A DNA stretch of 64,000 nucleotides, taken from Ectothiorhodospira sp. BSL-9 (GTDB lineage: Bacteria; Pseudomonadota; Gammaproteobacteria; Ectothiorhodospirales; Ectothiorhodospiraceae). The stretch is taken from assembly GCF_001632845.1 (NCBI RefSeq), contig NZ_CP011994.1, positions 744,001 to 808,000 of the forward strand, in the 5' to 3' direction. Under the pieces are notes generated by a model, which was not told the DNA's origin, searched no databases, and saw only the letters and a program-made list of their open reading frames with translations. A program made the position numbers and the translations under genes. Shown in pieces: positions 5,478-61,382 of this stretch (the stretch's first letter is position 1; each line of letters begins with the position of its first letter).

Positions 5478-5537
5478 CCGGGCCGCCGCTTGCCCTCCCC
5501 CCAGAAGACAACCCAAGGCAAACAGAGACCCAACAAC

Positions 5538-6014
5538 ATGCTCAAATGGCTATGGCTCTCCTTCGGCGTGATCGTGCTGGACCAGATCACCAAGCGTATC
5601 GCCGAATATCAACTCGTGCAGTTCGCCCCCATGGAGATCCTGCCCTTCCTGAACCTGGCCCTGGTCTACAACCAGGGCGCCGCCTTCAGCTTCCTCAGTG
5701 ACGCCGGGGGCTGGCAGCGCTGGTTCCTCACGGCCCTGGCACTGCTGGTCAGTGCCGTCATCATCTGGTGGCTGCATCGACTCCAGCGGGGCGAGACAGG
5801 CACCGCCATCAGCCTGGCGCTGATCCTGGGCGGTGCCATCGGCAATGTCATCGATCGGGTCCTGCACGGGCACGTGATCGACTTCATCGACGTTCACTAC
5901 GCCGGCTACCACTGGCCCACCTTCAACATCGCCGACAGCGCCATTACCGTGGGCGCCGTGATCCTCATCGCCACCAGCTTTCTACCCGCCTCCCGTCAGA
6001 GGCAGGGCTCGTGA
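5538..6014 (+). CDS. lspA: Lipoprotein signal peptidase (signal peptidase II)
   Basis: Inner-membrane aspartic protease that removes signal peptides from diacylglyceryl-modified prolipoproteins. The 158-residue protein has four hydrophobic segments and both catalytic-Asp regions: NVIDRVLHGHVIDFID and FNIADSAI. The ATG at 5538 gives MLKWLWLSFG, the usual type of start; an upstream in-frame start at 5490 would add an unlikely hydrophilic leader. The last four bases (GTGA) overlap the fkpB start, so the two are translationally coupled. Confidence 0.95.
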   Translation: MLKWLWLSFGVIVLDQITKRIAEYQLVQFAPMEILPFLNLALVYNQGAAFSFLSDAGGWQRWFLTALALLVSAVIIWWLHRLQRGETGTAISLALILGGAIGNVIDRVLHGHVIDFIDVHYAGYHWPTFNIADSAITVGAVILIATSFLPASRQRQGS

Positions 6015-6448: not shown

Positions 6449-6482
6449 ATCAGTAGTGGCCTGCCCACTCCACGAAATGTGA

Positions 6483-6764: not shown

Positions 6765-6912
6765 GAACGAGCGGAGAATTCGAGGATAGTCCAATTTGCA
6801 TAAGGAGGACAGCCCCCTTTGCCCCCAAGCATCGCAGGCCCATTCGGCAGCCGCGCGCCGTTGTTGTAGGATATCGCCCTACCAGCCATCCTCACTCTCA
6901 GGCCAGAAGAAC

Positions 6913-7851: not shown

Positions 7852-7871
7852 AAGGGGACAGACACCTTTTT
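7850..7871. repeat. GACAGACACC repeat, copy 1
   Basis: A 22-base element with core GGGGACAGACACC flanked by A4 and T5. The near-identical element at 9595-9617 is its reverse complement with one substitution (GGTGACAGACACC) and one extra A. The two copies bracket the ybiT gene; this one overlaps the ispH stop codon. Confidence 0.85.
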
Positions 7872-7874
7872 CGC

Positions 7875-9464
7875 TCACACTGCCACGTCCAGCTCACGCA
7901 GATAGTCGTCGTAGGTGCCGTTGAAATCGGTCACGCCGTTTTCGTTCAGCTCGATGATGCGTGTTGCCAGACTGGAGACGAACTCGCGGTCATGGCTGAC
8001 GAAGATCAGCGTGCCGGGGTAGTTCTCCAGGGCCAGGTTCAGTGCCTCAATCGATTCCATGTCCAGGTGGTTGGTGGGTTCGTCCATGATCATCACATTG
8101 GGTTTTTGCAGGATCAGCTTGCCGAACAGCATGCGGCCCTGCTCACCACCGGAAATCACCTTCACCGATTTGAGGATGTCATCGTTGGAAAACAGCATGC
8201 GACCCAGGGTACCGCGCACCAATTGGTCGCCGCCGGTGGTCCACTGCGCCATCCAGTCGATCAGGGTCTCGTCGTTCTTGAAGTCGTCGGCGTGTTCCTG
8301 GGCAAAATAGCCCAGATCAGCGCTTTCGGCCCATTTGACCGTGCCCGTCATCGGTGGCAGTTCATTCACCAGGGTGCGTAGCAGCGTCGTCTTGCCGATG
8401 CCGTTGGGCCCAATGATCGCAACGCGCTCACCGGCCTCGATGTGCAGACTCAGGTTCTTGAACAACGGCTCGCCATCGAACCCCTGGCTGACCTTGTCGA
8501 GGATCACGGCCTGGCGGTGCAACTTCTTGTACTGATCGAAACGGATGAACGGGCTGACCCGACTCGAAGGCTTGACCTCATCCAGCTGGATCTTCTCGAT
8601 CTGCCGGGCGCGGCTGGTGGCCTGCTTGGATTTGGAGGCGTTGGCCGAGAAGCGGCTGACGAAGGTCTGCAGCTCGGCAATCTGGGCCTTCTTCTTCGCG
8701 TTGTCGGACAGCAAGCGCTCGCGGGCCTGAGTGGCGGCCGTCATGTATTCATCGTAGTTGCCGGGGAACAGGCGCAGTTCGCCAAAGTCCAGATCCGCCA
8801 TGTGCGTACAGACGCTGTTGAGAAAGTGGCGATCGTGGGAAATGATGACCATGGTGCTGTTGCGCGAGGTCAAAACGCCTTCCAGCCAGCGGATGGTGTT
8901 GATATCCAGGTGGTTGGTGGGCTCGTCCAGCAGCAGCACTTCCGGATCGGAAAACAGCGCCTGGGCCAGCAGGACGCGTAGCTTCCAGCCGGGCGCGATC
9001 TCGCTCATGGGCCCGTTGTGTTGCGCCAGCGGAATACCCAGGCCGAGCAGCAGCTCGCCAGCACGGGCTTCGGCGGTGTATCCGTCCATCTCGGCAAATT
9101 CGGTTTCCAGTTCGGCCACCTTCATGCCGTCTTCTTCGCTCATTTCCGCCAGGGAATAGATGCGGTCGCGCTCGGCACGCGTCTTCCACAGCGCCTCGTG
9201 ACCCATGATCACGGTGTCCAGCACGCTGTAGCTCTCATAGGCGAACTGGTCCTGACGCAGCTTGCCCAGGCGCACATTGGGCTCGAGCATCACCTGGCCG
9301 CCGGAAGGCTCGAGATCGCCCCCCAGGATTTTCATGAAGGTGGACTTGCCCGAGCCGTTGGCACCGATCAGGCCGTAACGGTTACCCCCGCCAAACTTGA
9401 CTGATACGTTCTCGAAGAGAGGCTTGGCCCCGAACTGCATGGTGATATTGGCGGTGGATATCAA
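7875..9464 (-). CDS. ybiT: ABC-F family ATP-binding protein, YbiT type
   Basis: Soluble duplicated-ATPase protein of the ABC-F family, whose members act on the ribosome. Two ABC domains are visible: Walker [10 protein letters not shown] and Walker [12 protein letters not shown] in the first; GPNGIGKTT, the ISGGEQ signature and [10 protein letters not shown] in the second. A charged interdomain linker lies between them. The best start is TTG at 9464 ([20 protein letters not shown]), with AGGA seven bases upstream; it gives 529 residues, the length of E. coli YbiT. The gene is convergent with ispH and is flanked by inverted GACAGACACC repeats. Its codon choice looks less GC-biased than its neighbours, consistent with acquisition. 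Confidence 0.93.
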
Positions 9465-9594
9465 AAGAATGTCCTGCGGAAAAAGGAGGGTGTGGTTGCC
9501 GGGCGGCGATGGGGAGGTCTGAAAACCCAACCGGGCATGGTACGGGCTCTGGGCCGTTATTGACAGGGTTGTCCGACGAGCGTAGGGCATGGTC

Positions 9595-9617
9595 AAAAAG
9601 GTGTCTGTCACCTTTTT
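9595..9617. repeat. GACAGACACC repeat, copy 2 (inverted)
   Basis: Core GGTGTCTGTCACC with A5 before and T5 after. It is the inverted partner of 7850-7871, placed about 130 bases upstream of the ybiT start. The element is itself nearly palindromic (AAAAAGGTG/CACCTTTTT) and could form a hairpin. Confidence 0.85.
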
Positions 9618-9647
9618 AGTCACCATACATTTTTACAGTTTGCCACC

Positions 9648-9739
9648 GCGGGAGCTGGCCTGCCGGCGATGCGCTGCGGCAGCAGCGCCCAGACCATGCC
9701 ATGTGCTCACCGCTTTCGCGGGCGGGGCCCGCTTCCACA
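9648..9739. repeat. REP-like inverted pair
   Basis: Two imperfect inverted units: GGGAGCTGGCCTGCCGGCGA at 9650-9669, and a rightward unit at 9716-9739 containing GGGCGGGGCCCGCTTCCACA. Both resemble the repetitive extragenic palindromes common in Pseudomonas, each with its own internal palindrome. They lie between ybiT and the amtB terminator. Together with the repeats around ybiT they fill the 368-base spacer (9465-9832), in which I see no gene. Confidence 0.6.
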
Positions 9740-11122: not shown

Positions 11123-12306
<1,184 letters not shown>

Positions 12307-12372
12307 GGATGTTTCCTCTCGCAGGTTCGTTGTTCACATCTGTGGTGTAAAAGTCACTGCCGGGAGGGTTTT

Positions 12373-12388
12373 AGCATTTGGCGTGCCA
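12373..12388 (-). promoter_or_regulatory. Sigma-54 (RpoN) promoter of the porin-glnK-amtB operon
   Basis: Read on the - strand the sequence is TGGCACGCCAAATGCT. It has the invariant GG and GC separated by exactly 10 bases and a near-perfect -24 element, TGGCACG. Transcription would begin near 12362, giving a leader of about 55 bases before the porin start. A possible NtrC site lies about 100 bases upstream. Confidence 0.82.
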
Positions 12389-12482
12389 GGTTGGTTTTTC
12401 TCTGTTTTTCAGGGCCTTGTGGATTGGTTCACGATTCTGGCCGTGGAGGGCGCCCTGTTTTGGGTGAGCGAGGGGGGATTCT

Positions 12483-12499
12483 TGCACCATTGTGGGGCA
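12483..12499. promoter_or_regulatory. Putative NtrC enhancer site
   Basis: TGCACCATTGTGGGGCA is a near-palindrome matching the NtrC consensus TGCACC-N5-GGTGCA with one mismatch. It sits about 100 bases upstream of the sigma-54 promoter, the usual range for enhancer binding. No second equally good site was seen, though 12448-12465 is a weak candidate. Confidence 0.6.
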
Positions 12500-12609
12500 G
12501 ACTTGAAAAGGGACTTCGGGGATGGGGGGCGGCGGGCGGGGTGCCTGCCCTTCGGCCCACTTAAGGCGTAAAATGGGCACGACATACGAACACGGCACGG
12601 AGGTGCACC

Positions 12610-12897
12610 ATGATCGACAACAAGAGCCTGGATGAAATGGTCCGCAAATTGAGCGGGATGATGCCCGAGTCCGTGCAGCATGTTCAGGCGGACATTGAGA
12701 AGAACCTCAAGGCCGGCCTGTCCGGTGCCTTCCATCGCATGGATCTGGTCACCCGTGAGGAGTTCGAGGTACAAGCCGCCATGCTGGAGCGCACCCGCGA
12801 ACGCCTCTCAGCCATGGAGGTACGGGTGAAGGCGCTGGAGAAGGAGTTTTTGGCACCCCGGGCACAGGGGGATGAGAACCCGGCGGGGGATTTGTAA
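12610..12897 (+). CDS. ubiK: UbiK (YqiC/BMFP-type) ubiquinone biosynthesis accessory factor
   Basis: A 95-residue protein reading MIDNKSLDEMVRKLSGMMPES, then a helical region (TREEFEVQAAMLERTRERLS) and a C-terminal coiled coil. This matches the YqiC/UbiK family, small trimeric proteins that assist the UbiJ-containing complex in ubiquinone synthesis under oxygen. A good ribosome-binding site (GGAGG) lies just before the ATG. It is divergent from the porin operon, and this glnK/amtB-ubiK neighbourhood recurs in gammaproteobacteria. Confidence 0.88.
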   Translation: MIDNKSLDEMVRKLSGMMPESVQHVQADIEKNLKAGLSGAFHRMDLVTREEFEVQAAMLERTRERLSAMEVRVKALEKEFLAPRAQGDENPAGDL

Positions 12898-12915
12898 CAC
12901 ACAACCACCCAAGCA

Positions 12916-12944
12916 GAACCGGGCGGGGGTCCCCTGCCCGGTTC
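12916..12944. terminator. Strong hairpin between convergent ubiK and CBS genes
   Basis: A 9-bp outer stem GAACCGGGC/GCCCGGTTC encloses further G/C pairs, directly after the ubiK stop and before the convergent CBS gene. There is no T run on either side, so it may terminate weakly in both directions or simply separate the transcripts. Confidence 0.45.
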
Positions 12945-12961
12945 GGCAACCCGCCACAAAC

Positions 12962-13555
12962 CTACCGATTCAACAACTTCTCGATCTGCGCAAAACTTTG
13001 CACCGGCCCCTCCGAGGTGATCTCCACCCCCAACTGCCGGCCGATCTGCGTCAGTGAGAACAACCCTCGCAACAACTCGCGGCGCCGCTCGTCATACTCC
13101 ACCACCAGGGCGTGCTGACGCCCCGCATCGCGCAGGGTGACCACCACATCCCCCACCCGGGCCGTGACCACATCGTAATGGTCCATCACGCTCAACTCGC
13201 CCCGGGGCGTCATCACATGCTGCACCAGCAGGGCGTTGTGGGAGATGCGCTCGTCCGAGACGGCCTTGACCGGCTTTTCCCCCATGATGTCCCGGGCGGT
13301 GACCACACCCCGCACACCGTCCTCGGGGTCCACCACAATCAACAACCGCACCCCGGCATGAATCATCTTCTGCAGGGCCGCGTCCATGGGCATCTCCGGT
13401 GGCGCGGTCACGGCTTCCACACGGCGGAAATCGGTCATCACGTCCCCGGCCGGATCCTCCATGGTCACCCGCGAGGGCAGACCCTGGCCAAACCGATGGA
13501 CGGTGACATGTTCAGACAGCGTGTGGGACGGAATCAGTGCATAGCGTGCAGCCAT
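12962..13555 (-). CDS. CBS-domain protein
   Basis: A 197-residue cytoplasmic protein with two CBS modules: roughly residues 38-95 (MTDFRRVEAVTAPPEMPMDA and LLIVVDPEDGVRGVVTARDI) and 110-185 (VQHVMTPRGELSVM, then ALVVEYDERRRELLRGLFSL). CBS pairs bind adenosyl ligands and regulate partners; no fused effector domain is present, so the target is unknown. The ATG at 13555 has an AAGGAG six bases upstream and is preferred over an upstream start at 13597. It ends facing ubiK. Confidence 0.82.
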   Translation of the reverse strand: MAARYALIPSHTLSEHVTVHRFGQGLPSRVTMEDPAGDVMTDFRRVEAVTAPPEMPMDAALQKMIHAGVRLLIVVDPEDGVRGVVTARDIMGEKPVKAVSDERISHNALLVQHVMTPRGELSVMDHYDVVTARVGDVVVTLRDAGRQHALVVEYDERRRELLRGLFSLTQIGRQLGVEITSEGPVQSFAQIEKLLNR

Positions 13556-47107: not shown

Positions 47108-47308
47108 GGGATCGGGGGAGCGTCAGCCAAGCCGGCGACACCTTAGCATGCCACGATGACAGGAACAGTAGTGGATCGGGCATGCGGGCGGCGCGGGGAC
47201 TGTATGCCCCTGCGTGGCTGACACGGTCACTGCTTGCTATATTGGGATTCTCGTCCGCACACCAACGGCTGGCAGGTGCTGTCAGCACCAACCATCGGAG
47301 CCTTGCCC

Positions 47309-49501
47309 ATGCGCATCCGCTGGCCAGCTCTCACCCACACGCTCCTGTGGGCACTCCTGGTTGCAGGACTCCCGGCGGCTGTCCTGAGCAGCGGGCCCAC
47401 CATCGCTCAGACCGATGACCCAACAGGCCTGCCGCAGGAAGCGATCACAGACGAACTGCTGGTACGCACCCAACCCCACATGGGGCAAGCGCGGGCGCTT
47501 TCAGCGCCACGCACAGGCCCCGGCCTGCGATCCCAGGGCTGGCAACGCGTGAAGATCCCCGATGGCATGGACCTGGACGAGGCCCTTGAGTGGCAGCGCC
47601 AACAGGTGGGCGTGGTTCATGTGGAGCCCAATTACCGGGTCAAGCTCGTTTCAGTCCTCCCGGATGACCCGGCGCTTTACGAGCAATGGGCCCTGGGTAC
47701 CAACGTAAACCGCGCAACGCCCTCTGGTGACATCAATGCGCCTCCTGCATGGGCACGGACCACCGGGAGTCGGGAGATCGTCGTGGCCCTGCTGGATTCC
47801 GGTGTCGATCTGGGACACGAGGATCTGGCCGCGAACATCTGGGTGAACCCCACGCCGCAAGCCCCCGACACCTGTCCGACGCCGGATTCGGGCCAGGCCT
47901 GCTACCCGGGTGACCAAAACGGCTGGAACTTCATAGACAACAAGCCTGACCCCACGGACGATCACGGCCATGGCACTCACGTGGCCGGCATCGTGGGCGC
48001 CGTGGGCAACAACGGCATCGGCGTGGCGGGAATCAACTGGGAAGTGAGCCTCATGCCGCTCAAGTTCCTGGATGAACGCGGCAACGGACGTATCTCGGAT
48101 GTCATCGACGCCATTCACTATGCTGTGGACAACGGCGCCCATGTGATCAACGCCAGCTATTCCACCCCAGGCGAGTCCGTCGCCGAGCGTGAAGCCATTG
48201 AATATGCCCGGGACGCAGGTGTGCTCTTCGTGGCGGCCGGCGGTAACGATCGCCGCAACCTGGATGAACGCCCCATCTATCCGGCTGCCCACCAGCTGGA
48301 GAATGTGATCGCCGTAGGCTCCAGCACTCGCAACGGCACCCTTTCCTCCACTTCCAACACCGGCCCGAACACCCTGCACCTGGCGGCACCGGGCGAAGGC
48401 ATCCTGAGCACATGGCCCAAGGGCATCTCCTGTGCCGGCAACACCGACGCCTCATACTGCCTGGTGAGTGGCACATCCATGTCGGCTCCCATGGTCACCG
48501 GCGCCGCTGCCCTTCTCTGGTCTCAGATGGACATGGATGATCCCACCACGTGGAGACGCGTACGCGAGCGCATCCTCACCACCACCCGCACGGAGGGAGG
48601 CGCTCATCACACCCTGACGGGCGGCATTCTGGATCTGGACCGATTACTGAATGCGGACCCAGCCACCCTGCCCCCTTTCCAGCCCACGCATCTTGAAGTC
48701 CGCTCGGGTGATAGCGGTATGGAACTGAGCTGGTTGAACAACTCCGCCATTGCCACAGGCCAGAGCCTTGAGCGTTGCGCAGCTCATGAACTGAATCAGG
48801 GCCAATGCGCCGAGGGCGACTTCCAGCCTTTGGGACCTGCGCCCCCCCAGGCCAGCCAGTTCACGGACATGGGCACCCAGGGACAGGAAGGGACCCTCTA
48901 CACCTACCGGGTCCGCGCCTCCAGCGACCAGGGAGAATCCCCCTGGTCCAACATGGCACAGATCTCCACGCCCCCGCTGGCCCCTACCGATCTCAACGCC
49001 ACCCGTTTCAGTGACGGCATTCGCCTCACCTGGACCAACCGCTCCCAGACGGCCGAGCGCCTCCGCCTGGAGCGGTCGCGCGATGGAGATAATTTCTCAG
49101 AGATCGCCGAACTCCCCCGAGACGCCGAACGCTATGAAGACACGCTCACCCGGGAAGGTGACTACCGATATCGTCTATGCGCCGACCATGGCATCACCGG
49201 TTGTTCAGACTACGCCACCACGGCCGCAGTGCAATTTCGTCTGAGAGTTTCCTCCAACGGCAGCACCTGCCTGGTGAACTCCGCCACCGCCGGACTACCG
49301 GCCCAGGAACGGGATACCGTGCTCACCGCCCTGCGGGAGGTGCGGGATGAGAGGCTCACGCCCCATGCACCTGGCCGGTGGCTGGTAGCCACCTATTATC
49401 GCGCCAGCCCCACTTTGGTGGAGTGGATGCAGGGGTCGGAGAGGCGGGAGCAGGTGGTATTGGGGATGATTCTCAAAACCTGGGAGTGGGTGGCCGAATA
49501 G
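47309..49501 (+). CDS. Secreted subtilisin-like (S8) protease with Fn3-like and CFI-box-like C-terminus
   Basis: A 730-residue exported protease. Signal peptide about 1-34, then a propeptide-like region (about 45-110, ending GVVHVEPNYRVKL). The catalytic domain shows all three residues: Asp163 (LLDSGVDLGH), His221 (DHGHGTHVAG) and Ser390 (SGTSMSAPMVTGAA). Two Fn3-like domains follow (about 475-650). The last 70 residues (CLVNSATAGL, then LREVRDERLTPHAPGRWLVA) resemble the CFI-box C-terminal domain with its usual CFIATAAYG core altered. ATG at 47309 has GGAG upstream. A likely type II secretion client given the gsp operon nearby (inference). Confidence 0.88.
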   Translation: MRIRWPALTHTLLWALLVAGLPAAVLSSGPTIAQTDDPTGLPQEAITDELLVRTQPHMGQARALSAPRTGPGLRSQGWQRVKIPDGMDLDEALEWQRQQVGVVHVEPNYRVKLVSVLPDDPALYEQWALGTNVNRATPSGDINAPPAWARTTGSREIVVALLDSGVDLGHEDLAANIWVNPTPQAPDTCPTPDSGQACYPGDQNGWNFIDNKPDPTDDHGHGTHVAGIVGAVGNNGIGVAGINWEVSLMPLKFLDERGNGRISDVIDAIHYAVDNGAHVINASYSTPGESVAEREAIEYARDAGVLFVAAGGNDRRNLDERPIYPAAHQLENVIAVGSSTRNGTLSSTSNTGPNTLHLAAPGEGILSTWPKGISCAGNTDASYCLVSGTSMSAPMVTGAAALLWSQMDMDDPTTWRRVRERILTTTRTEGGAHHTLTGGILDLDRLLNADPATLPPFQPTHLEVRSGDSGMELSWLNNSAIATGQSLERCAAHELNQGQCAEGDFQPLGPAPPQASQFTDMGTQGQEGTLYTYRVRASSDQGESPWSNMAQISTPPLAPTDLNATRFSDGIRLTWTNRSQTAERLRLERSRDGDNFSEIAELPRDAERYEDTLTREGDYRYRLCADHGITGCSDYATTAAVQFRLRVSSNGSTCLVNSATAGLPAQERDTVLTALREVRDERLTPHAPGRWLVATYYRASPTLVEWMQGSERREQVVLGMILKTWEWVAE

Positions 49502-49757: not shown

Positions 49758-51902
49758 ATGCAAAAACAACAACCGGGATACTTTACCCGCTCCTGCTTAG
49801 TCGTTGCCTGTGCCGCCGCATTTTCCGTCCCACTCTCGGGATGCCTTGGAAGCTCATCAAGCAGCACCACATCGCCAACGGATCCTATAACAAGCGAACC
49901 AGACGCGTTGCCCACCATCACCGGTACAGTGGATATTCCTGAAGCCAACTTCCAGCCCACAATAAGCCAATCCAGGCACCAAAATGCTGTCCGGCTCGCA
50001 GGTGACTTCCTCATTGGGACGGCAAACGCACAAGCAGGCCCGGGCCCCTATTGGATTGAGTTAATCCGCGTAAATCCCCATAGAGACGACGATGTAATAT
50101 CAGGCATCGATGGTCAGCAATTGAGATCACCAATATCCGACGATGGCACCTACACGATCGAGATCCCACAAGATATCGAAATAAGCACGAGATTGGTACT
50201 TCGGGTTATCCAAGATGGTGAAAGCGAACCGGTCCTCCGCGCGATTGTCACCGGAGACCGAGTGAACGTCGATCCGATTTCAGAGTTCATAACCGCAGCA
50301 CTCATGGACAGTCAAGTCCAATTGGACCAAATCTCTGTTGACGAAGTAATGAACCTTCGCGCGGCCGCAGAATCGGTGAGCATTGACGAGGCCGATCGCG
50401 GCACCACCGAAAGTTGGATTAATGCCCTCAAGGCGTCCGCAGGAAATATCGTCAATAGTGAAATTACTGAACTGAGCCTAGCCCCAGCGGATTATAGCTC
50501 CCTGGGCACCCACTATAAGACGTACCACATTGGCAAAGGGCTAGGCTTTGAAAGTGAAATGCCTCGAGTGGCCACACAATTCGAAGAGGGACACGGATTC
50601 TCCTTCCGCTCCGACTCCAACGGTGAAGCCGAGCTTGCTGAATCCACATTTTATGTCAACGTCACTGACTTGTCACTCAATGAAAACCAATTGAATTCAT
50701 ACACGACCAATGAACCCCCACACATTGTAACCGGGCTACGCTTCAGACAAGGAGGCGCATTAAGCGTGGCCATGCCTGGTGAAACAAACTACGAGCAACT
50801 GGATCACGGTACTTTTGCTGCTGTACATGCGCCAGGCACCTTCCGACTTCAAAGTATACCGGCGATACCAACAGACAGCTCCATCGAATGGGATGAGCCT
50901 TATGCCTTTGTGGGGCTCAATCGAGACTCTCAAAGACATTATTACCAATCTGGCGCCCAGGGACCGGAAGATCTCGACCTTGAGTCTGAAGCCGACCTTC
51001 AGGGATGGCGCGAATCCCTGGCTTTAGATCTTATGGTTGCGAGCGGCACCCGCCCTGAACTGCGAGAGAGTTACGGCTTGGTGCGAATCGCACACGAACT
51101 CGGTAACAATGGATGCAATGGCATTCGAACTGAGGCCATGCTTGCACAGAATCCCGACGGTGAGGGAGGTTATAGCATCGGGGAAGTGTTATCAGAAGGA
51201 TTCATTCATGCTGGCTGTAACGATGTTTCCATAGATCCGCCACCGGAAACAATTAGACTAATTGCACTACAAAATGGTCGTGGCGAAATGATGCTGCAGG
51301 TCGATGGAACAGATATCAGCATGACTGGACATGGCGAGCCCGAAGGGCGTCTCTGGGTGATACCAGAGCGCGATGTCGCGAAGAGCGGGGACGATTACAC
51401 CTTCATTGAAGAATCCCTCTTGATCGGCATGGCGGTGGACCCCGGCTTTCCTGACGTTGCAAAAACAACATGGCAGTTTTTCGGATACGAGTCTACGTAT
51501 GACACATCGTCGTCAGGCCCCATCAGGATCAGCGGCTTGCTAGGCGGCCAAGTTGGTTTCTGCGGAGAGGTTGATCACGTAAGTCGCCTCGCCTTTTATC
51601 CGAACCGCGAGGCGCAAGTCAGTCGAGTTGGCTCGGGTGAAATCAACCTCGAACATGCTGATCCTAGTAAGGTAATTTATGAAGATTCGGCCCAAGTCGC
51701 TTATGAACAGAATGGCGGCATCACCATCACGATCCCCGGAGACAATGACTCAGGGCGTTGGGAAGCTAAGGGTTTCGTCAGTGCCGATGGAGAGATGATG
51801 CTTTTGGTTAGCCGTGAGTATGCTACTGACAACACCTTGAAGGGCACGGGCATCATGATCGCGGTTAAAAACGAGGAGCGAGAGGATCCCTGCTCACAAT
51901 AA
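49758..51902 (+). CDS. Lipoprotein of unknown function in lower-GC DNA
   Basis: A 714-residue predicted lipoprotein with signal segment CLVVACAAAFSVPLSG followed by Cys29 and a serine-rich linker (SSSSSTTSPTDP). The first part (about 50-240) includes ITGTVDIPEANFQ and TYTIEIPQDIEISTRLVLRV, a beta-rich segment seen in carboxypeptidase-regulatory-like or adhesin lipoproteins. The rest (about 250-700) shows no recognised domain; repeated RLIALQNGRGEMMLQVDG-type strands suggest beta structure. Codon use and GC content are visibly lower than the surroundings, a sign of recent acquisition. AAGGGA lies before the ATG. Function unknown. Confidence 0.75.
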   Translation: MQKQQPGYFTRSCLVVACAAAFSVPLSGCLGSSSSSTTSPTDPITSEPDALPTITGTVDIPEANFQPTISQSRHQNAVRLAGDFLIGTANAQAGPGPYWIELIRVNPHRDDDVISGIDGQQLRSPISDDGTYTIEIPQDIEISTRLVLRVIQDGESEPVLRAIVTGDRVNVDPISEFITAALMDSQVQLDQISVDEVMNLRAAAESVSIDEADRGTTESWINALKASAGNIVNSEITELSLAPADYSSLGTHYKTYHIGKGLGFESEMPRVATQFEEGHGFSFRSDSNGEAELAESTFYVNVTDLSLNENQLNSYTTNEPPHIVTGLRFRQGGALSVAMPGETNYEQLDHGTFAAVHAPGTFRLQSIPAIPTDSSIEWDEPYAFVGLNRDSQRHYYQSGAQGPEDLDLESEADLQGWRESLALDLMVASGTRPELRESYGLVRIAHELGNNGCNGIRTEAMLAQNPDGEGGYSIGEVLSEGFIHAGCNDVSIDPPPETIRLIALQNGRGEMMLQVDGTDISMTGHGEPEGRLWVIPERDVAKSGDDYTFIEESLLIGMAVDPGFPDVAKTTWQFFGYESTYDTSSSGPIRISGLLGGQVGFCGEVDHVSRLAFYPNREAQVSRVGSGEINLEHADPSKVIYEDSAQVAYEQNGGITITIPGDNDSGRWEAKGFVSADGEMMLLVSREYATDNTLKGTGIMIAVKNEEREDPCSQ

Positions 51903-55209: not shown

Positions 55210-55989
55210 TCAGAGCCTTCCGCTCAGGTTGAGCGGGATGCGACCCTCGCTGTCCTCCCGACCCATGAGGCTCAGTGCCTGACCCAGTCCGGGTTCGGCC
55301 TGGTCACGCGCGCCCAGTCGGCCCTGGATCTGCCAGGGCCCCACCGGGCTCAGGCGAGCGGTGGCCTCCAGGAACAGCGGGCCTCCATGGTCACGGGCCA
55401 CGGCCCGGAGCCAGCCGTTATCGTCGGTGCTCAGTTCGGCACGCAGGTCGCCCAGGGGGATGGCCTGGGGCAGCCCCGAAGCGGCCCCCAGCCAGCCCAG
55501 GGTGCCTTCGGCCCGGGTGAAGCCTGCCTCGTGATGGACATGCACCACCGGAATGTCGGCCAGAATGCGCCCCTCGACGATCACCGGAAAATCCACAAAG
55601 GCATCGGCCAGGTAGGCGGCTGGCAGGTCTGCCCGCAGGTTTTGCAGACGCATCCCGGTGGTGCGCAGACCCAGTTGCGCACTGCCCCCACTCCCGGGCC
55701 GGGCGAACTGGATGTGTGTGCGCAACTCGCCGCGCAACAGCGGCCAGGCAGACACCTGCCAGGCCACCCCCTGTAATGACAGCTCTTCCCAGCGCAGTTG
55801 CTGCACCTCGCCGGACCACACGGAACCGGACAGGCCTTCCACAGCCAGTTCCGGCGGCAGCCAGCCCCGGTCGCGGGCGAGATCGTGGGCCAGGGTGGCG
55901 GGCAATGTAACCATTAGGAAGACGAGGTAGGCGATGAGGCCCGCCAGGACGTAATGCCAGGGCTTGAGAACGAGGCTTTTCAGGGGCAC
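55210..55989 (-). CDS. gspN: Type II secretion system protein N
   Basis: A 259-residue bitopic inner-membrane protein with one N-terminal helix (about 12-32, HYVLAGLIAYLVFLMVTLPA) and a periplasmic region. LSGSVWSGEVQQLRWEELSL and ASAWPLLRGEL-type segments are characteristic of the GspN family. It follows gspM after 67 bases and is the last gene of the gsp operon. Confidence 0.85.
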   Translation of the reverse strand: MPLKSLVLKPWHYVLAGLIAYLVFLMVTLPATLAHDLARDRGWLPPELAVEGLSGSVWSGEVQQLRWEELSLQGVAWQVSAWPLLRGELRTHIQFARPGSGGSAQLGLRTTGMRLQNLRADLPAAYLADAFVDFPVIVEGRILADIPVVHVHHEAGFTRAEGTLGWLGAASGLPQAIPLGDLRAELSTDDNGWLRAVARDHGGPLFLEATARLSPVGPWQIQGRLGARDQAEPGLGQALSLMGREDSEGRIPLNLSGRL

Positions 55990-56056: not shown

Positions 56057-56542
56057 TCAACTCTCCAGCACAAGGCGCACGTTCACCCGCCCACCGGCGG
56101 ACTGGCGATCCACCACCAGGCTGCTGACCTGGATGCCGTACTGGCGACGTAGTTCGTCCAGCCACAGCAGCATGTCATCGAAGGGGGTGTTCTCCATCCA
56201 CACGCGCACCGTATGACCACCCTCGGGCTGGACGCGCCGCAGGGTACCTGCCAAGGGGCCGGATTGGGCGGTGGCGTCGATGATGCCCAGCAGGGATTGT
56301 CCGCCCATGTCGGCGGGGGCCGCCTGGGTCTGGCCACGGGCGCTGCGGATCTGACTGGCAGCCTGCTCCATCCAGGCCAGGTCGGCCTGCAGACGGGCCA
56401 CGTCCTGCTCCATGGCGGCTACCCGGTCACTCAGCGGCAGCCAGATCAGCCAATAGGGCAAGGCCACGCAGAGGAAGAGACCACCCACCACAAGGATGCG
56501 CCGGTCCCGCACCGACTGTTCACGCCACCATGCCTTGATCAT
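56057..56542 (-). CDS. gspM: Type II secretion system protein M
   Basis: A 161-residue inner-membrane protein of the secretion platform: one N-terminal helix (about 16-36, ILVVGGLFLCVALPYWLIWL), then a coiled coil and a small periplasmic ferredoxin-like domain ending VNVRLVLES. It partners GspL. Its ATG overlaps the gspL stop by four bases. Confidence 0.88.
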   Translation of the reverse strand: MIKAWWREQSVRDRRILVVGGLFLCVALPYWLIWLPLSDRVAAMEQDVARLQADLAWMEQAASQIRSARGQTQAAPADMGGQSLLGIIDATAQSGPLAGTLRRVQPEGGHTVRVWMENTPFDDMLLWLDELRRQYGIQVSSLVVDRQSAGGRVNVRLVLES

Positions 56543-57783
56543 GATCCCGAACTCCTGATCAGAATGCGACTCTCCACCCGGTCGTTCCGGGCGCTGGCCG
56601 ACTGGATATCCACGGCCCAGCCCGCTTCCTGTTCCAGTTTCTGCTTGAGCCGGTCCAGGCCCTGCAGGTCACGCAAGTGCAGGTCCAGATCCAGCCGACC
56701 CGCCTGATAGCGCAGGCCCTGGATGCTCAGACCCTCCTCCCCCGCCAGGGCCGGTGCGGCCCGGGTGAGCAGATTCTGAAGGTCAGAACCCGACCCATCG
56801 GGGCCGGATGACAGACCCCGCAGGGCCGTTTCCATCTGACGTCGGGGGTCAACGATACGGCCGCCGGGGAAGGTCTGCTGGTAGACCTCGATCATGCGTT
56901 CCTCCAGGGCGGTCTGTTCGGCCCCCAGGGACTGCAGGTTCCAGCCCAGGCCGACAAACTGGATTACCACCCAGGCCAGCAGCACACTGGCAGCGATCCG
57001 CCAGGACCGCCACAGGTGGTCCATGGAATCCCGGGGGCTGTAGGGGCCGCATAGCAGGTTGAGCGGGGGGCGGGCAGGCCAGTGCGCCGCCAGGTGTTCC
57101 AGCAGACTGGATGGGCTCTCGCTCAGCGTGAGCTCCATACCATGACTATCCTCCTGAAGGGTCCGAAGCGCATCATCGCCGGGCCGGCCAGACCCATGGC
57201 GCAGGACCTTCAGGTGCTGCGGGCGTTCCCCCTCCGGGGTCTCCTCCAGGCAGCGACGCAGCAGAAAAGCGGCGTTGTCCCGCTCCAGGGTCGTGCCCCT
57301 GCCCTCACCCATGGACAGCCAGCCGCCCTCGCCTTCCAGCCACAAGACCCAGGCATCCGCCTCGGCAGGCAGCACGGCGGTGTCCGGGATCATCGCCGCG
57401 GGCTGGATGCCGGCCCCGCGCAGGCCATCCAGCCAGGCCTGCATGTCCGCCTGGGAGACCACGGCCACCGTCAGGTCGCCATTGGCGCGGCGGGTGCCGG
57501 GGGCAAAATGCAGGATCTCCACGTCGTCCGCCAACTGATCTTCCAGGGCATAGGGCAGCGCCCGGCGAAGTGCCCTGGGGTTGCGGGTGGGGATGCGGGC
57601 CTGGGTCAGCAGGACCCGGGCGCCGGGGGCCAGTACCCGGCAGGCGGCATCCGGGGCCTGGGCCCGCAGGGCATCCAGCGTGTCGGTGCCCAGGGGCGTA
57701 AGTCTGCCATCGGACGCCTGGAGCACACCCTGCCAGGTGCTGTCTTCCGGGTGGGGCCTGAGGATGAGGTGACGCTGTGTCAA
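56539..57783 (-). CDS. gspL: Type II secretion system protein L
   Basis: A 414-residue bitopic protein linking the cytoplasmic ATPase GspE to the platform. The cytoplasmic actin-like domain comes first (LTQRHLILRPHPEDSTWQGV, RALPYALEDQLADDVEILHF). A single membrane helix lies at about 255-275 (SVLLAWVVIQFVGLGW), followed by a periplasmic ferredoxin-like domain. The start is taken as TTG at 57783, preceded by AGGAG. That TTG overlaps the stop of the upstream protease by four bases (TTGA). The longer ATG start at 57819 would lie inside the protease gene. Confidence 0.88.
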   Translation of the reverse strand: MTQRHLILRPHPEDSTWQGVLQASDGRLTPLGTDTLDALRAQAPDAACRVLAPGARVLLTQARIPTRNPRALRRALPYALEDQLADDVEILHFAPGTRRANGDLTVAVVSQADMQAWLDGLRGAGIQPAAMIPDTAVLPAEADAWVLWLEGEGGWLSMGEGRGTTLERDNAAFLLRRCLEETPEGERPQHLKVLRHGSGRPGDDALRTLQEDSHGMELTLSESPSSLLEHLAAHWPARPPLNLLCGPYSPRDSMDHLWRSWRIAASVLLAWVVIQFVGLGWNLQSLGAEQTALEERMIEVYQQTFPGGRIVDPRRQMETALRGLSSGPDGSGSDLQNLLTRAAPALAGEEGLSIQGLRYQAGRLDLDLHLRDLQGLDRLKQKLEQEAGWAVDIQSASARNDRVESRILIRSSGS

Positions 57784-60425
57784 TGGATCGGGCTCCTGGG
57801 GCGATGGCCCCCTATCCATTCAGCGATGGTGGGATCAGCTGTATCCATCTGGATATCCTCGGAAGTGTTCCGGATGGCCATGGGCAGGCTCAGGCTACGG
57901 CCGGCACCCTCGACCTCGGTCAGCACCACAGAACCATAATGAAAGGTGTCCAACTCATCGCCTTGGTATCGGGTTTCAATGCTCAGATACACGCTCTGAC
58001 CCGGGGCCAGGGAAAAACTATGGGGTGAGGCCTGTGCGAAGCGTCCGTCCTCCATCTGGGCGACCACATCCCAATGGGTGATTTCCCCAGAGACATTGGT
58101 CAAGCGGCGGGTCCACCCACAGTCATGGACGCAGGCCCCATGCCCGAGACTGGCCAGGTTCAAACGGCTCGGATCACCCGCACCTGGAGGGCCATGTTCC
58201 CCGCGCAGGCTCGGGTTTGCCGCTTCATAGGCTGATCGGGACTCGTCCAGAAGCAGCGGTGCACTGACCGCCCTCACGGTATCCACCCGCCCGCTGCCTC
58301 GGTCAAAGGGTGTGGCCGGCTGACCTTGATGGTCCCGGATACCCTCCCACCGGGCCGTGGTCATGACCGCGGAGCGGGCCTGCGCTGGCGTCCAGTTCCG
58401 ATGCAGGGATGTGATCAATGCCATCAGACCTGCCACATGAGGGCTGGCCATGGAGGTGCCATTCCAGATGGCGTAGCCTACGCCGTCCACCACCGGGGCC
58501 AGGATGGCCGACCCGGGCGCCACCACATCGGGCTTGATCACGTCGGGCGCCTGCCGGTTCCACCCACGCGAACTGTACGATGCTACGCGGTCCGCAGCGG
58601 CGGGGTCATGACGGACTTCAGTCCCCGAGAGGCTGCCCATCAAGGGTTTACCGCCTTCCCGTGCCTCACTCATCCACTGCGCCAGACGTTGGGCGTCCTT
58701 TTGGGTGATATGCACGGCAGGCAATACGTGTGCATCCAGCACCAGCGCCGATTCATCGCCTGGATCCACCTCGGCCAGGATCATCCCGGCACCACCATTC
58801 TCCCTGACATATTGTCCCTTCTCCACGCGGGCATTTTCACCACGATCGCAGATCACGATCTCACCATTGAAACGGCCCTCAAACTTCCCTTCACAGTAGC
58901 GATCCTGGACATCCTTTGCGTGGATGATCGGGGCGCGGTCGAGGCCCCGGGTCAAGGCCACCCCCGTGATCCTCTCGTTTTCATCACCCCAGGCCACCTG
59001 CAAGTGGTTGACGTAACTCAGTGCGTGCGTGCTGGAACCCACCGTGAAGACCCAGGGTGCATCACCGGGAGTATCCACGGTGGCTGCGTCTGGTCCGGAG
59101 TTGCCTGCGGCGACCACCACATGGATCCCCAGGTCGATGGCCGTCAGCAACGGGAGGCCCAGCACGGAATCCTCCCAGGGGTTGTAGTCCGCGCCGCCCA
59201 GCGAGAGATTGAGCACATCCACCCCATCCATGACGGCCTGTTCCACGGCGGCGATGAGGGCCGAATCACGAAAAAAACCATCCTCGTTGGAATAGGCATG
59301 ATAGGCGATGAGGTTGGCGTGGGGCGCCACGCCCGAGATATTGGCGTTCAGGCGCAGCCCCGAGGGGGCGTATACCGTGACCTCCCGAACAAAATTCCCC
59401 ACCGCCGTGGCGGCCACATGGGTGCCATGACCATCGCGGTCCATGGCGTTCAACCCTGGATCATCCAGTACCCAGGCACCAATCAATTTATTGTTACAAG
59501 AGAAATTAGGATTGTAGAGGCGATCGTTGCGAGGATCGCACACCCCGTAAAAATGACCACGGGGGTTGTCATGCACATAGCCATCATCACCGACTTGCGC
59601 AAATGAGGGACTGTGTGGATTGATGCCGGTATCGATGATACCCACCACAATGCCCTCACCCATGGTGGGCGGCAGCCCCGGATGGGCCTTGCCCGACCAG
59701 ATGGCGGGCGCACCGATCAGGGCTGCACCGGGAGATACGAATTCTGCCCCAGGCACGTTGAGGTTGATGCTGCCGCCACCGGAGCTGAAGCAGGCCGGAA
59801 GGACGAGGGAAACCCCCGCCGTCGTCAGCAGAATGACGGTGGTGCGTGGACCTCCATGACGCCGATAGGCCCAGAAGGCCACGATGAGGATCAGCAAGGG
59901 AAGGCCCAGCCACCTCCATGACCACACGAACGCCCAAGGCGCATCTTGTTGGCCTTCGTATGGCCATACCGTGTCGTCCGCCGCCCCATGCATCCTCGTG
60001 AAGCCTTCGGGCTCCACGGCCAGGATGTCGGGATGCTCCCGAATACGCCCTGCCTCGGATGCACTCAAGTGAACGGCCAGCCCATGCATTGTGACGTCGT
60101 ATTCCCGGACAATGGTCAGGGGTCTTTCCAGATCGGATTCCAGATCCCGGATGATGCGTTGTCGCTCCCCCCGGAGGTATTCACGGTACTGCCTGACCGT
60201 GGCTTGCTCCATGTCCAGTCGTACTGCGCCGGCCACTCTTGGGTGGGTGGCGGGATAACCCGGAACACCCCCTTCATAGCGAGCGATGGGCTCCCCGGAA
60301 AGCGTGACGATATGAATCGACTGTTCCTCGGCCAGGGCCATGAGGGGCAGGAGCCATAACGCCATGAAAATACACCATTGCCTCACTTGCCGGGGCAGGA
60401 TCACAGCCTCAACACATGCCTTCAT
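57780..60425 (-). CDS. Membrane-anchored subtilisin-like (S8) protease within the gsp operon
   Basis: An 881-residue protease with an N-terminal hydrophobic segment (19-32) and an I9-type propeptide-like domain (about 70-145). Two closely spaced membrane segments follow (172-188 and 196-212), with a charged YRRHGGPR stretch between them. The catalytic domain carries Asp265 (GIIDTGINPH), His333 (DRDGHGTHVAAT) and Ser658 (NGTSMASPHVAG). A protease-associated domain is inserted at about 490-580. It sits between gspK (117 bases away) and gspL (4-base TTGA overlap), so it is translationally coupled to a secretion-platform gene. A standard gsp operon has no such gene. It could be a secretion client, a processing enzyme or a surface protease; none is proven. 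Confidence 0.88.
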   Translation of the reverse strand: MKACVEAVILPRQVRQWCIFMALWLLPLMALAEEQSIHIVTLSGEPIARYEGGVPGYPATHPRVAGAVRLDMEQATVRQYREYLRGERQRIIRDLESDLERPLTIVREYDVTMHGLAVHLSASEAGRIREHPDILAVEPEGFTRMHGAADDTVWPYEGQQDAPWAFVWSWRWLGLPLLILIVAFWAYRRHGGPRTTVILLTTAGVSLVLPACFSSGGGSINLNVPGAEFVSPGAALIGAPAIWSGKAHPGLPPTMGEGIVVGIIDTGINPHSPSFAQVGDDGYVHDNPRGHFYGVCDPRNDRLYNPNFSCNNKLIGAWVLDDPGLNAMDRDGHGTHVAATAVGNFVREVTVYAPSGLRLNANISGVAPHANLIAYHAYSNEDGFFRDSALIAAVEQAVMDGVDVLNLSLGGADYNPWEDSVLGLPLLTAIDLGIHVVVAAGNSGPDAATVDTPGDAPWVFTVGSSTHALSYVNHLQVAWGDENERITGVALTRGLDRAPIIHAKDVQDRYCEGKFEGRFNGEIVICDRGENARVEKGQYVRENGGAGMILAEVDPGDESALVLDAHVLPAVHITQKDAQRLAQWMSEAREGGKPLMGSLSGTEVRHDPAAADRVASYSSRGWNRQAPDVIKPDVVAPGSAILAPVVDGVGYAIWNGTSMASPHVAGLMALITSLHRNWTPAQARSAVMTTARWEGIRDHQGQPATPFDRGSGRVDTVRAVSAPLLLDESRSAYEAANPSLRGEHGPPGAGDPSRLNLASLGHGACVHDCGWTRRLTNVSGEITHWDVVAQMEDGRFAQASPHSFSLAPGQSVYLSIETRYQGDELDTFHYGSVVLTEVEGAGRSLSLPMAIRNTSEDIQMDTADPTIAEWIGGHRPRSPIH

Positions 60426-60542
60426 TTGTGGTTACATCCATCGCCGACTGATCGCATTTCAGACGATAACACAGCCCCGCTGACCGGGATGCCACGGGAC
60501 AGCGCCCGAACCCAGGACCACCTTCAGGGCACATGAAGGCCC

Positions 60543-61382
60543 TCATGGGCCACAGGGGATCTGCTCACGCAGGATCACTCGCTGCTCGGCGATATCCAGC
60601 AGGCTGCAGAGCAGGAAGCGGCGGCCGGCCAGTTCGGTGCGCACGGCCAGACGATAGTAGCGGGACGTAAACTCTGTCTCCTCATCATCATCCGCGTCCG
60701 CCTCGCCGAAGACCTCGCGAAGGATCTCCGGCGCCTCGGCCAGGTTCATGCCGGCCCCCGTGCCGGGCAGTGCCGTCAGGTAAGGGGCCACCGCCCGCCA
60801 GACCTCGTCGTTCACCCCCTGCACCAGCCGCAGTTCCGTGGGACTGAGCATGAGCTGGTTACCGCTCAGATAGGGTGGCTCCTGGCTGTGATAGCCGGGG
60901 TCGTCGGTCTCCGGGTCCAGCCAGTCGATGATGCTGCGGGTGAGGCCGTCGCTGTCCAGGGTGACACCCTGGGCCTCCAGGGACACCGCGTCCAGCAGTT
61001 GCACGAAGCGTTCGTGCACGGATTCATCCTCGGTGGCCAGATCATTGATATTGAACCGGCAGTGCATATCCTCCAGCCACACGGTGAGATCGGCATCCTC
61101 CAGGACCACGGGGATGGGAGGGGAAACGCAGCCCTCCCAGGGCAGGTCCACATCATCATCCTGGTGTACCTCACCCAGCAGTCGCAGGGCATAGGCCTCG
61201 GCACCCAGGGACAACTGGTAGGCCTGGTCGTGGGTGAACACATTGGTGGTGCGGCGGATGTCCATGTGCTGTCGGGTGGCCATGGACACCGCCGCGATGG
61301 TGGCCAGCGTCACCACCAGCAGGGCGGTGAGCAGCGCCACCCCCCGCTGTCTGGCCGGTGACTGGAAGGTTCGGCGCGCCAT
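60543..61382 (-). CDS. gspK: Type II secretion system minor pseudopilin K
   Basis: A 279-residue large pseudopilin at the tip of the pseudopilus. Its prepilin segment QRGVALLTALLVVTLATIAA lacks the Glu at +5, as is normal for GspK. It has the typical VWLEDMHCRFNINDLATEDE and IDWLDPETDDPGYHSQEPPY. Its start codon shares one base with the gspJ stop. Confidence 0.92.
   Translation of the reverse strand: MARRTFQSPARQRGVALLTALLVVTLATIAAVSMATRQHMDIRRTTNVFTHDQAYQLSLGAEAYALRLLGEVHQDDDVDLPWEGCVSPPIPVVLEDADLTVWLEDMHCRFNINDLATEDESVHERFVQLLDAVSLEAQGVTLDSDGLTRSIIDWLDPETDDPGYHSQEPPYLSGNQLMLSPTELRLVQGVNDEVWRAVAPYLTALPGTGAGMNLAEAPEILREVFGEADADDDEETEFTSRYYRLAVRTELAGRRFLLCSLLDIAEQRVILREQIPCGP

Follow-up and report, generated by a model that had tools for sequence, protein, structure and literature searches.

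The presence of a gene for a subtilisin-like S8 protease inside a type II secretion (gsp) operon raises the question of whether this protease is part of the secretion machine or only lodges in its operon, and what its unusual domain layout may mean. The window, by which we mean the whole analysed stretch of 64,000 nucleotides from Ectothiorhodospira sp. BSL-9, carries the gene as an intact open reading frame of 881 amino acids at 57780-60425 on the minus strand, according to the ORF list and Pfam matches. We judge it probable, taking both statements together, that the S8 gene rides in the gsp operon as a passenger and belongs to a clade with an internal lipoprotein signal in front of the protease. 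The parts of the locus that bear on the first statement are these:

55210..55989, minus strand: gspN (PF01203, 4.5e-51)
56539..57783, minus strand: gspL, with its native TTG start and AGGAG (profile matches, comparison with congeners)
57780..60425, minus strand: S8 subtilase gene of the hairpin family described below, its product shortened at the C-terminus (ORF calls, Pfam, 1098-aa relative)
57783..57842, minus strand: C-terminal tail (862-881), made up of the junction and the native leader of gspL (the E. lacustris alignment stops at 861)
57802..60541, no strand: stretch inserted between gspK and gspL, at its widest (blastn breaks; ends approximate)
57867..58160, minus strand: Fn3-like domain, residues about 756-853, the last domain left (strands in the model; fn3_6 in relatives)
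60462..60474, minus strand: CTGTGTTATCGTC, a 13-base element and possible own promoter of the S8 gene (12 of 13 bases identical in E. lacustris at the same offset)
60543..61382, minus strand: gspK (profile matches)

The original prediction had placed the gene between gspK and gspL with its stop overlapping the gspL start, and both statements agree with our data: the ORF is intact, its neighbours are by profile those claimed (order G-H-I-J-K-[S8]-L-M-N), and the TGA stop at 57782-57780 overlaps the TTG at 57783-57781 of gspL, an ORF that has an additional ATG at 57819. Its further claims, that the protease is built into type II secretion and that its translation is tied to gspL, did not survive comparison with other genomes. 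The S8 gene was absent between gspK and gspL in all eight other gspL-bearing Ectothiorhodospira genomes, as seen by tblastn on both strands, and in all 25 loci of the bacterial family with gspK upstream of gspL, surveyed on the coding strand and including those eight congeners (30 loci, from 33 genomes with a gspL match, minus the window and four without gspK in the stretch). On these loci we reject the idea of S8 as a common gene of gsp operons. The search for other gsp operons with an S8 gene in this position had been named in the prediction as a check, and by its refutation test the gene is, on sequence comparison, a chance insertion. Likewise, no gsp gene was found in ten stretches around other hairpin carriers (the E. 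lacustris stretch counting twice, in two copies), and in E. lacustris the nearest relative lies on a different contig from gspL. The S8 gene lacks the conserved place in gsp operons that is expected of a type II secretion system (T2SS) component.

The overlap of stop and start proved to be older than the S8 gene. Two S8-less congeners (G001 and G004) have TTGACC after CCAGGAGCC at gspL, and because TTGA stands at gspL in both, it is by this comparison the ancestral gspL start, and on this ground we reject translational coupling of S8 and gspL. As a caution, a stop-start overlap may come from a neighbour's old start codon and does not imply coupling. A functional role of the protein within the T2SS, as a processing enzyme for pseudopilins or exported clients that is translationally coupled to GspL, would draw on the operon position with its TTGA overlap, on the intact ORF and on a rate relative to E. 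lacustris that is not clearly raised. With the gene absent from the congeners' gsp operons, TTGA ancestral, the other carriers having their genes away from gsp and gspL retaining its own AGGAG, this reading is largely contradicted by the comparison, and we regard it as highly improbable. Thus the description as a membrane-anchored S8 protease stands, while that of a machine part built into a secretion operon falls, and the proposed link to type II secretion appears mostly wrong.

Comparison with two congeners also indicates the insertion itself, since blastn homology breaks at 57801 and 60542, homology to the G001 and G004 gspL leaders beginning at 57801. In addition, dS of the S8 gene is 0.52 versus 0.64-1.06 for nine neighbour genes, which we counted for insertion, and gsp operons of Ectothiorhodospira hold four further, unrelated inserts. 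By this comparison an S8 gene, probably of horizontal origin and bringing a little upstream sequence, landed in this lineage just 5' of the gspL ribosome-binding site; the landing appears to have cost the gene its C-terminal region, its ORF now reading into the old gspL leader up to the TGA overlapping the TTG. Timing and donor of this event we infer; a search for plasmid relatives gave 83 tblastn records, none covering 80% and all below 60% identity. Upstream of the gene, the match of CTGTGTTATCGTC to E. lacustris at the same offset was equalled in 1 of 2000 shuffles; a free local alignment of the two upstream regions, which 5 of 500 shuffles equalled, gave a less clear result. A consensus scan found no sigma-70 promoter of the S8 gene, and at 60489-60475 there is a single weak stem of terminator type, against 0.1 expected.

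The original prediction had missed that the C-terminus of the window protein is shorter than that of its nearest relative, the E. lacustris protein of 1098 amino acids, which is 217 residues longer and matches at 76% over residues 1-861. The window copy thus looks truncated by its landing. Beyond its stop point, six of the eight complete relatives scanned match PPC, only one of them over the Pfam cut-off; the two without a match, E. lacustris among them, were counted against. The domain preceding the break was not called as fn3_6 in the window protein; in E. lacustris this profile reached 24.9 bits, below its cut-off of 26.4, and it scored 34.0-42.7 bits in six Desulfuromonas-order members, with no match in Saccharospirillum, and the fold match of the window model to cucumisin-type enzymes runs to 853-854. 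The loss of the C-terminal region, together with a tree branch of 0.13 for the window versus 0.07 for E. lacustris, might suggest a decaying, non-functional fragment. However, the break falls directly after the Fn3-like domain, the catalytic triad is intact, relative-rate counts gave no significant window-only excess (chi-square 0.06 to 2.12 with four outgroup choices), and the overall dN/dS is 0.285, though the divergence may mostly predate the insertion; decay is accordingly a reading to which we give little credit.

Turning to the protein itself, the layout that the original prediction had called unusual, a propeptide followed by two close membrane segments around YRRHGGPR and an S8 domain with a PA insert, was confirmed and is conserved in a distinct clade. 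Its elements, and one further gene of the same genome, are as follows:

60327..60425, minus strand: putative N-terminal signal peptide, roughly residues 1-33 (begins hydrophobic; modelled helix 12-31)
59985..60326, minus strand: I9-type propeptide, residues 34-147 (PF05922, Inhibitor_I9, at 99-145; pLDDT 86-98 over 31-140)
59868..59918, minus strand: first membrane segment TM1, residues 170-186 (Kyte-Doolittle 1.73; modelled helix 165-190)
59838..59867, minus strand: loop of basic character, YRRHGGPRTT (187-196), predicted to lie in the cytoplasm (each of the 11 members has 3 to 5 Arg/Lys)
59793..59837, minus strand: second hydrophobic segment (197-211), which we read as the h-region of an internal lipoprotein signal (sequence, model)
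59790..59792, minus strand: Cys212, where we propose lipidation and the cut by LspA (nine members share no other residue throughout 148-232)
59769..59789, minus strand: FSSGGGS, Gly/Ser-rich stretch after the Cys, residues 213-219 (motif comparison with PMC12802150)
58332..59660, minus strand: Peptidase_S8 catalytic domain, residues 256-698 (PF00082, 3.8e-50)
58683..58898, minus strand: PA domain (510-581), an insert within the catalytic domain (PF02225, 1.8e-11)
5490..6014, plus strand: lspA, signal peptidase II (PF01252, 4e-45 on 5535-6014)

The Inhibitor_I9, Peptidase_S8 and PA matches all exceed their Pfam cut-offs. PF00082 scores 171.3 bits against a cut-off of 21.8, which assigns the protein to the S8 family with Asp265, His333, Asn442 and Ser658 all in place, and PF02225 scores 44.4 bits against 23.9, the PA insert being that of cucumisin-type S8 enzymes. 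What the original prediction had missed is that the second hydrophobic segment (197-209 by hydrophobicity, 197-211 up to the Cys, helix 193-212 in the model) ends in a lipobox-like LPAC whose last residue is Cys212.

This arrangement recurs in 11 proteins from nine genomes of Ectothiorhodospira, Saccharospirillum and the Desulfuromonas order, all of which have TM1, a loop with 3 to 5 Arg/Lys, a short hydrophobic stretch and a Cys between propeptide and protease, the TM1 of the window protein being the weakest of the eleven (Kyte-Doolittle 1.73). The Cys lies at 212 in the window protein, at 212-250 in nine others and at 352 in one ORF with a long predicted start. Over the 85 residues 148-232 it is the only invariant residue among nine sequences, the count leaving out the broken L174 and a partial third Desulfuromonas copy; while the Cys in the 11 members was located by the motifs read, the invariance in nine is independent of that choice. 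Six rows of the 46-row alignment A6 have the segment and the other 40 lack it; A6 comprises 43 of 65 surveyed loci (ten having been dropped because the filter gave no ORF), two more L066 copies and the window. On catalytic domains alone, in a tree that excludes L174, the ten hairpin carriers form one clade among 50 rows (100/99). In a phylum sample of 398 genomes, only the window's genome matched through the hairpin, with at most seven candidates scored per genome, and 8 of 369 genomes of a class sample matched at E <= 1e-40 (at most two candidates scored in each), the seven besides the window's genome from residue 232 or later only. Within the order of the Desulfuromonas metagenome-assembled genome, 6 of 136 genomes, that one included, match through the hairpin. 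L174, also a hairpin carrier, is a broken gene or sequence and was counted on the negative side.

A structure model had also been suggested in the original prediction. A model built from the 46-row alignment reached a pLDDT of 88.1 (an earlier one from five sequences, at 41.6, was not used), and in it the two hydrophobic segments come out as a helical hairpin, 165-190 and 193-212. Pro-subtilisin E (PDB 3whi), in which the propeptide is likewise docked on the protease, aligned over 349 of 355 residues at 2.2 A with model residues 34-721, and residue 1 of mature subtilisin corresponds in most subtilisin rows to model residues 221-223, 9-11 residues past Cys212. In the model, then, the hairpin is at the pro/mature junction; unlike in pro-subtilisin E, this junction crosses a predicted membrane hairpin that ends in a lipobox-like Cys.

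The second segment with its Cys reads as an internal lipoprotein signal for signal peptidase II, about 10 residues before the start of mature subtilisin: a basic n-region, a hydrophobic h-region and the Cys are found in all 11 members. The Cys lies mid-protein and not in the N-terminal placement of a lipoprotein signal. The lipobox reads LPAC in the two Ectothiorhodospira members, where Pro at -2 falls outside the usual lipobox patterns, and TAAC, LAGC, ASAC, MAAC or TTAC in the other nine. In the layout that we propose, a signal peptide and the I9 propeptide would be followed by TM1 running from outside to inside, the basic loop, the internal lipoprotein signal, the Cys and the protease, which would put propeptide and protease both outside the cytoplasm. 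Lipidation of Cys212 by Lgt would be followed by an LspA cut just in front of this residue, the presence of lspA in the same genome counting for this model. Subtilisins mature by self-cleavage, and signal peptidase II would here make, or duplicate, that pro/mature cut, releasing a lipid-anchored protease, which we infer to act in the envelope or at the surface, and a separate membrane-bound propeptide that would first fold the enzyme and then might inhibit it. That signal peptidase II is thus the activating protease of a zymogen, with Sec export, lipidation and activation in one step and the propeptide staying tethered in the membrane, where it would help folding and inhibit the enzyme, is an idea that we entertain tentatively, holding it at a little under an even chance. 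To our knowledge, internal lipoprotein signals are not established and LspA might not cut there, and among the papers listed by searches of open-licence PMC text no title or abstract describes a protein of this kind, near-synonym matches being unrelated by title and abstract. Also counted against an internal signal is that dN/dS between the two Ectothiorhodospira copies rises from 0.211 in the catalytic part to 0.553 in the hairpin region. As far as we know, lipoprotein prediction looks at N-termini; that the clade's one invariant residue is a Cys behind an internal segment, first basic and then hydrophobic, suggests possible processing of mid-protein signals by LspA, in which case lipoprotein maturation could double as zymogen activation and lipoprotein signals would not be confined to the precursor N-terminus.

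Two other readings of this segment have to be weighed. The hairpin could be a plain two-helix anchor in the inner membrane that LspA never cuts, the protein cleaving itself in the linker or staying one chain and the Cys being kept for a disulfide, a metal or another role. The modelling of the hydrophobic helices as a hairpin and the Pro at -2 in two members would fit such an anchor, which, however, needs no terminal Cys, does not account for a Cys that is invariant where no other residue of the segment is, and leaves aside that in 10 of 11 members the second stretch runs through the Cys into Gly/Ser/Asp/Asn-rich letters, as past lipoprotein signals; we find it doubtful. The other reading takes the S8 protein as a T2SS client, a surface lipoprotein exported through GspD with the aid of GspN, for which the gsp position would be useful even if reached by chance. 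Lipoproteins exported by the T2SS bear Gly/Ser, Asn/Asp or Gly/Asp motifs according to PMC12802150, and similar letters follow the Cys in 10 of the 11 members (FSSGGGS, FNSGGGG, SNSSSHS in three, GSDDGSP, GSGGD in three, and GGGDSHN), at least five of the seven P2'-P8' residues being G/S/D/N, in line with the motif reported there. The surface lipoproteins PulA and InvL described there have a comparable Gly/Ser/Asp-rich stretch past the lipidated Cys (lipidation being a proposal in the hairpin family), but their lipobox lies in an N-terminal signal peptide, and no link to GspN was seen for the hairpin family. While gspN lies in the same operon as the S8 gene, GspN (PF01203) was over the cut-off in three, below it in two and undetected in three of the eight other genomes with the hairpin family, it exceeded the cut-off in 8 of 20 listed genomes without the family, and the ten stretches around other carriers hold no gsp match. 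Moreover, at least five Gly/Ser follow the Cys also in one of ten lipoproteins that a strict pattern found in the Ectothiorhodospira DNA examined, and this pattern missed the window ORF at 49758 (LGSSSSS), so the motif is not special. A link through GspN we reject for lack of co-occurrence with the hairpin family in these genomes. The suggestion of a privileged client thus keeps the resemblance of the post-Cys stretch to a sorting motif and loses its GspN partner; it stays weakly open, and we think it unlikely.

Among known systems, the fold is closest to cucumisin/SBT3-type subtilases (PDB 3vta, 4yn3, 3i6s, 7eox), which share the S8 fold, the PA insert and, putatively, the Fn3-like domain with the window protein and match its model with Z 44.6-46.9 and 27-30% identity over 559-582 residues. 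The hairpin family differs by 66-88 residues between propeptide and protease, which none of the 40 other bacterial rows has. We know of no membrane hairpin or lipobox at this point in plant cucumisin-type enzymes. The NalP and SphB1 autotransporters are subtilases made as envelope lipoproteins, with the lipobox in the N-terminal signal peptide and a beta-barrel, whereas in the hairpin family the lipobox-like Cys is internal. T7SS mycosins are membrane-anchored S8 proteases in secretion operons; the window protein scores 98.7 with TIGR03921 against a cut-off of 278.75, and its place in the operon is not conserved. Unlike the GlyGly-CTERM proteases processed by rhombosortase, the window protein has no such C-terminus; a like tail is seen by eye in its relative L022, where a GlyGly-like motif is followed by a hydrophobic stretch and Arg at the C-terminus.

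The window contains an intact open reading frame of 881 amino acids, flanked by GspK and GspL within the gspG-N operon, in whose product Pfam places three domains:

57780-60425, minus strand: S8 protease gene
residues 99-145: Inhibitor_I9
residues 256-698: Peptidase_S8
residues 510-581: PA domain

The TGA stop of this gene (57782-57780) overlaps the TTG of gspL (57783-57781), and the original prediction of an S8 gene between gspK and gspL with its stop on the gspL TTG was thus seen in reading frame, domains and base positions alike. The unusual layout, two membrane segments around YRRHGGPR, was also recovered: in a hairpin region placed between propeptide and protease, TM1 (170-186) is followed by YRRHGGPRTT, then by another hydrophobic stretch (197-209) and by LPAC, which ends in Cys212. 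Among nine genes compared with the congeners G004 and G001, gspL (56539-57783) is the most diverged, with amino acid identities of 79.7% and 77.9%, the other genes lying at 81.6-96.3%.

Comparison with relatives indicates that the S8 gene came to lie in this operon by accident, in the window's lineage. A match at E <= 1e-30 was obtained in only two of 47 family genomes, the window's own (a single contig of 3.55 Mb) and that of E. lacustris, where the S8 gene lies on contig 17, with a CysA-type ABC transporter gene on one side and a glucose/sorbosone dehydrogenase-family gene on the other, and gspL on contig 12. In the genus Ectothiorhodospira, gspL is present in nine of ten genomes, and none of the other eight has an S8 gene between gspK and gspL, which speaks against the protease being part of the secretion machine. 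Across 30 family gspL loci, 25 (these eight congeners included) have gspK upstream in the stretch and no S8 gene, one is the window and four lack gspK in the stretch examined; this agrees with the claim that a standard gsp operon has no protease at this place, and the suggested search for further operons with one found none in these 25. DNA homology to two close congeners stops at 60542 and restarts at 57801, in a gspL leader with CCAGGAGCC and TTGAC. Because G001 and G004 have TTGACC at the same place of gspL without any protease there, the stop-start overlap is the old gspL start codon, read in the S8 frame, and the proposed translational tie to gspL loses its ground.

The window copy also appears to be shortened, since its local alignment with the 1098-amino acid E. 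lacustris protein stops at residue 861 and its final residues stem from junction DNA and gspL leader sequence. Beyond residue 861, a PPC domain was matched in six of eight complete relatives scanned (one over the Pfam cut-off, five below) and unmatched in the E. lacustris and G831 proteins. As the break lies after the Fn3-like domain, the catalytic part is whole. The two S8 copies differ by a dS of 0.52, lower than each of nine neighbouring genes in the same genome pair (0.64-1.06), which suggests, by a modest margin in dS, a transfer after the split of the two lineages. Over the whole length their dN/dS was 0.285, with 0.553 for the hairpin region and 0.211 for the catalytic part; in relative-rate counts with four outgroup choices, the window copy showed no significant excess of changes. 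Other gsp loci of the genus carry inserts of their own:

L016 (E. lacustris) 11607-13174: CheB and PAS-GGDEF reading frames between gspJ and gspK
L017 (congener G008) 7685-8170: GNAT gene between gspJ and gspK
L019 (congener G006) 6041-7097: Xre-RES pair between gspI and gspJ
L019 (congener G006) 8690-9679: YhgA-like Transposase_31 gene between gspK and gspL

The gsp operon often serves as a landing place for inserts, and that of the genus seems tolerant of single-gene inserts, mutually unrelated.

The conserved layout, not the operon place, is the real find. A genome-contig scan yielded 65 related loci, 55 with a reading frame by the filter used, and two extra hydrophobic segments stood at the hairpin place in three of the 55 (E. 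lacustris, a Desulfuromonas MAG and a Saccharospirillum MAG); a 46-row alignment has 66-88 residues there in six rows and none in 40. When a profile of the hairpin region was run on 398 sampled genomes of the phylum, with at most seven candidates scored per genome, the window's genome alone matched through the hairpin; in another 20 the match was confined to the propeptide part. Of 136 genomes from the order to which the Desulfuromonas MAG belongs, six gave a full match, five of them new, bringing the members to 11 proteins in nine genomes. TM1, the basic loop, the short hydrophobic stretch and the Cys are present in all 11, the loop having three to five Arg/Lys and no more than one acidic residue, and the residues up to the Cys read LPAC (2), TAAC (3), LAGC, ASAC, MAAC (3) and TTAC. 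Cys212 is the sole invariant residue over positions 148-232 (1 of 85, nine members); in the catalytic part of the same nine, 138 of 468 positions are invariant. On a tree of catalytic domains alone (50 rows), the ten tested carriers form one branch (100/99), and the two Ectothiorhodospira copies group with three Desulfuromonas-order proteins. Given this single branch, the segment probably has a single origin and was retained thereafter, and we infer that transfer probably lies behind the Ectothiorhodospira gene. The Desulfuromonas MAG has three hairpin subtilases in tandem (L066 143-9169), the third truncated at the edge of the contig, and in another carrier (L174 4886-7717) the gene extends over at least two reading frames, being broken or affected by a sequencing error.

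An AlphaFold2 model (46 rows; pLDDT 88.1, pTM 0.87, 609 of 881 residues scoring at least 90) predicted the membrane segments, for which a structure model had been proposed, as two helices, 165-190 and 193-212, the linker 148-171 being unsure. Of the 355 residues of pro-subtilisin E, 349 could be aligned with the model, between model positions 34 and 721. In most of the subtilisin rows the first residue of the mature enzyme corresponds to model 221-223; this puts the modelled hairpin at the pro/mature junction, with the Cys about 10 residues ahead of the mature start. With an N-terminal signal peptide and the basic loop in the cytoplasm, propeptide and protease would both be periplasmic. The second segment resembles an internally located lipoprotein signal: Lgt would place a lipid on Cys212, LspA (signal peptidase II; lspA, window 5490-6014) would cut before it, and the cut would free a lipid-anchored protease from the membrane-bound propeptide. 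A main doubt on this lipidation reading is the Pro at -2 in the two Ectothiorhodospira members. By its modelled fold the window protein is an S8 protease of the cucumisin/SBT3 type; a mycosin identity was rejected (98.7 bits, cut-off 278.75). Among the open-access papers listed in literature searches, none describes an internal lipobox in a protein of this kind.

T2SS-dependent lipoproteins of Acinetobacter have Gly/Ser or Asn/Asp motifs after the Cys, and most of those of Burkholderia and Shewanella have Gly/Asp hybrid motifs, according to the relevant passages of PMC12802150. The hairpin members are similarly rich, five or more of the seven post-Cys residues being Gly, Ser, Asp or Asn in 10 of 11, and GspN was therefore considered as a candidate partner. 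This candidate was dropped: it scored over the cut-off in three of eight other carrier genomes, below it in two and was undetected in three, and exceeded it in eight of 20 listed non-carriers. Ten stretches of 9 to 20 kb surrounding the other carriers yielded no gsp gene, and three carriers of the Desulfuromonas order have the S8 gene directly 3' of acetolactate decarboxylase and amidohydrolase genes. The window protein is possibly a T2SS client in its own genome; the hairpin family, taken as a whole, has no tie to T2SS on this evidence. In L171, L172 and L173, from three genomes, the order is amidohydrolase, alpha-acetolactate decarboxylase, hairpin subtilase, the decarboxylase stop overlapping the protease start in all three, and a sodium symporter lies upstream, with a Pfam match in L171 only.

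A second S8 gene of the window (47234-49501, plus strand), unmatched in the stretches examined around gsp of congeners, ends in a CFI-box-CTERM tail, which scores 45.3 bits with NF041770 (cut-off 40). Adjoining it, a 714-amino acid protein with no Pfam match (49758-51902, plus strand) carries a lipobox-like LSGC followed by LGSSSSS.
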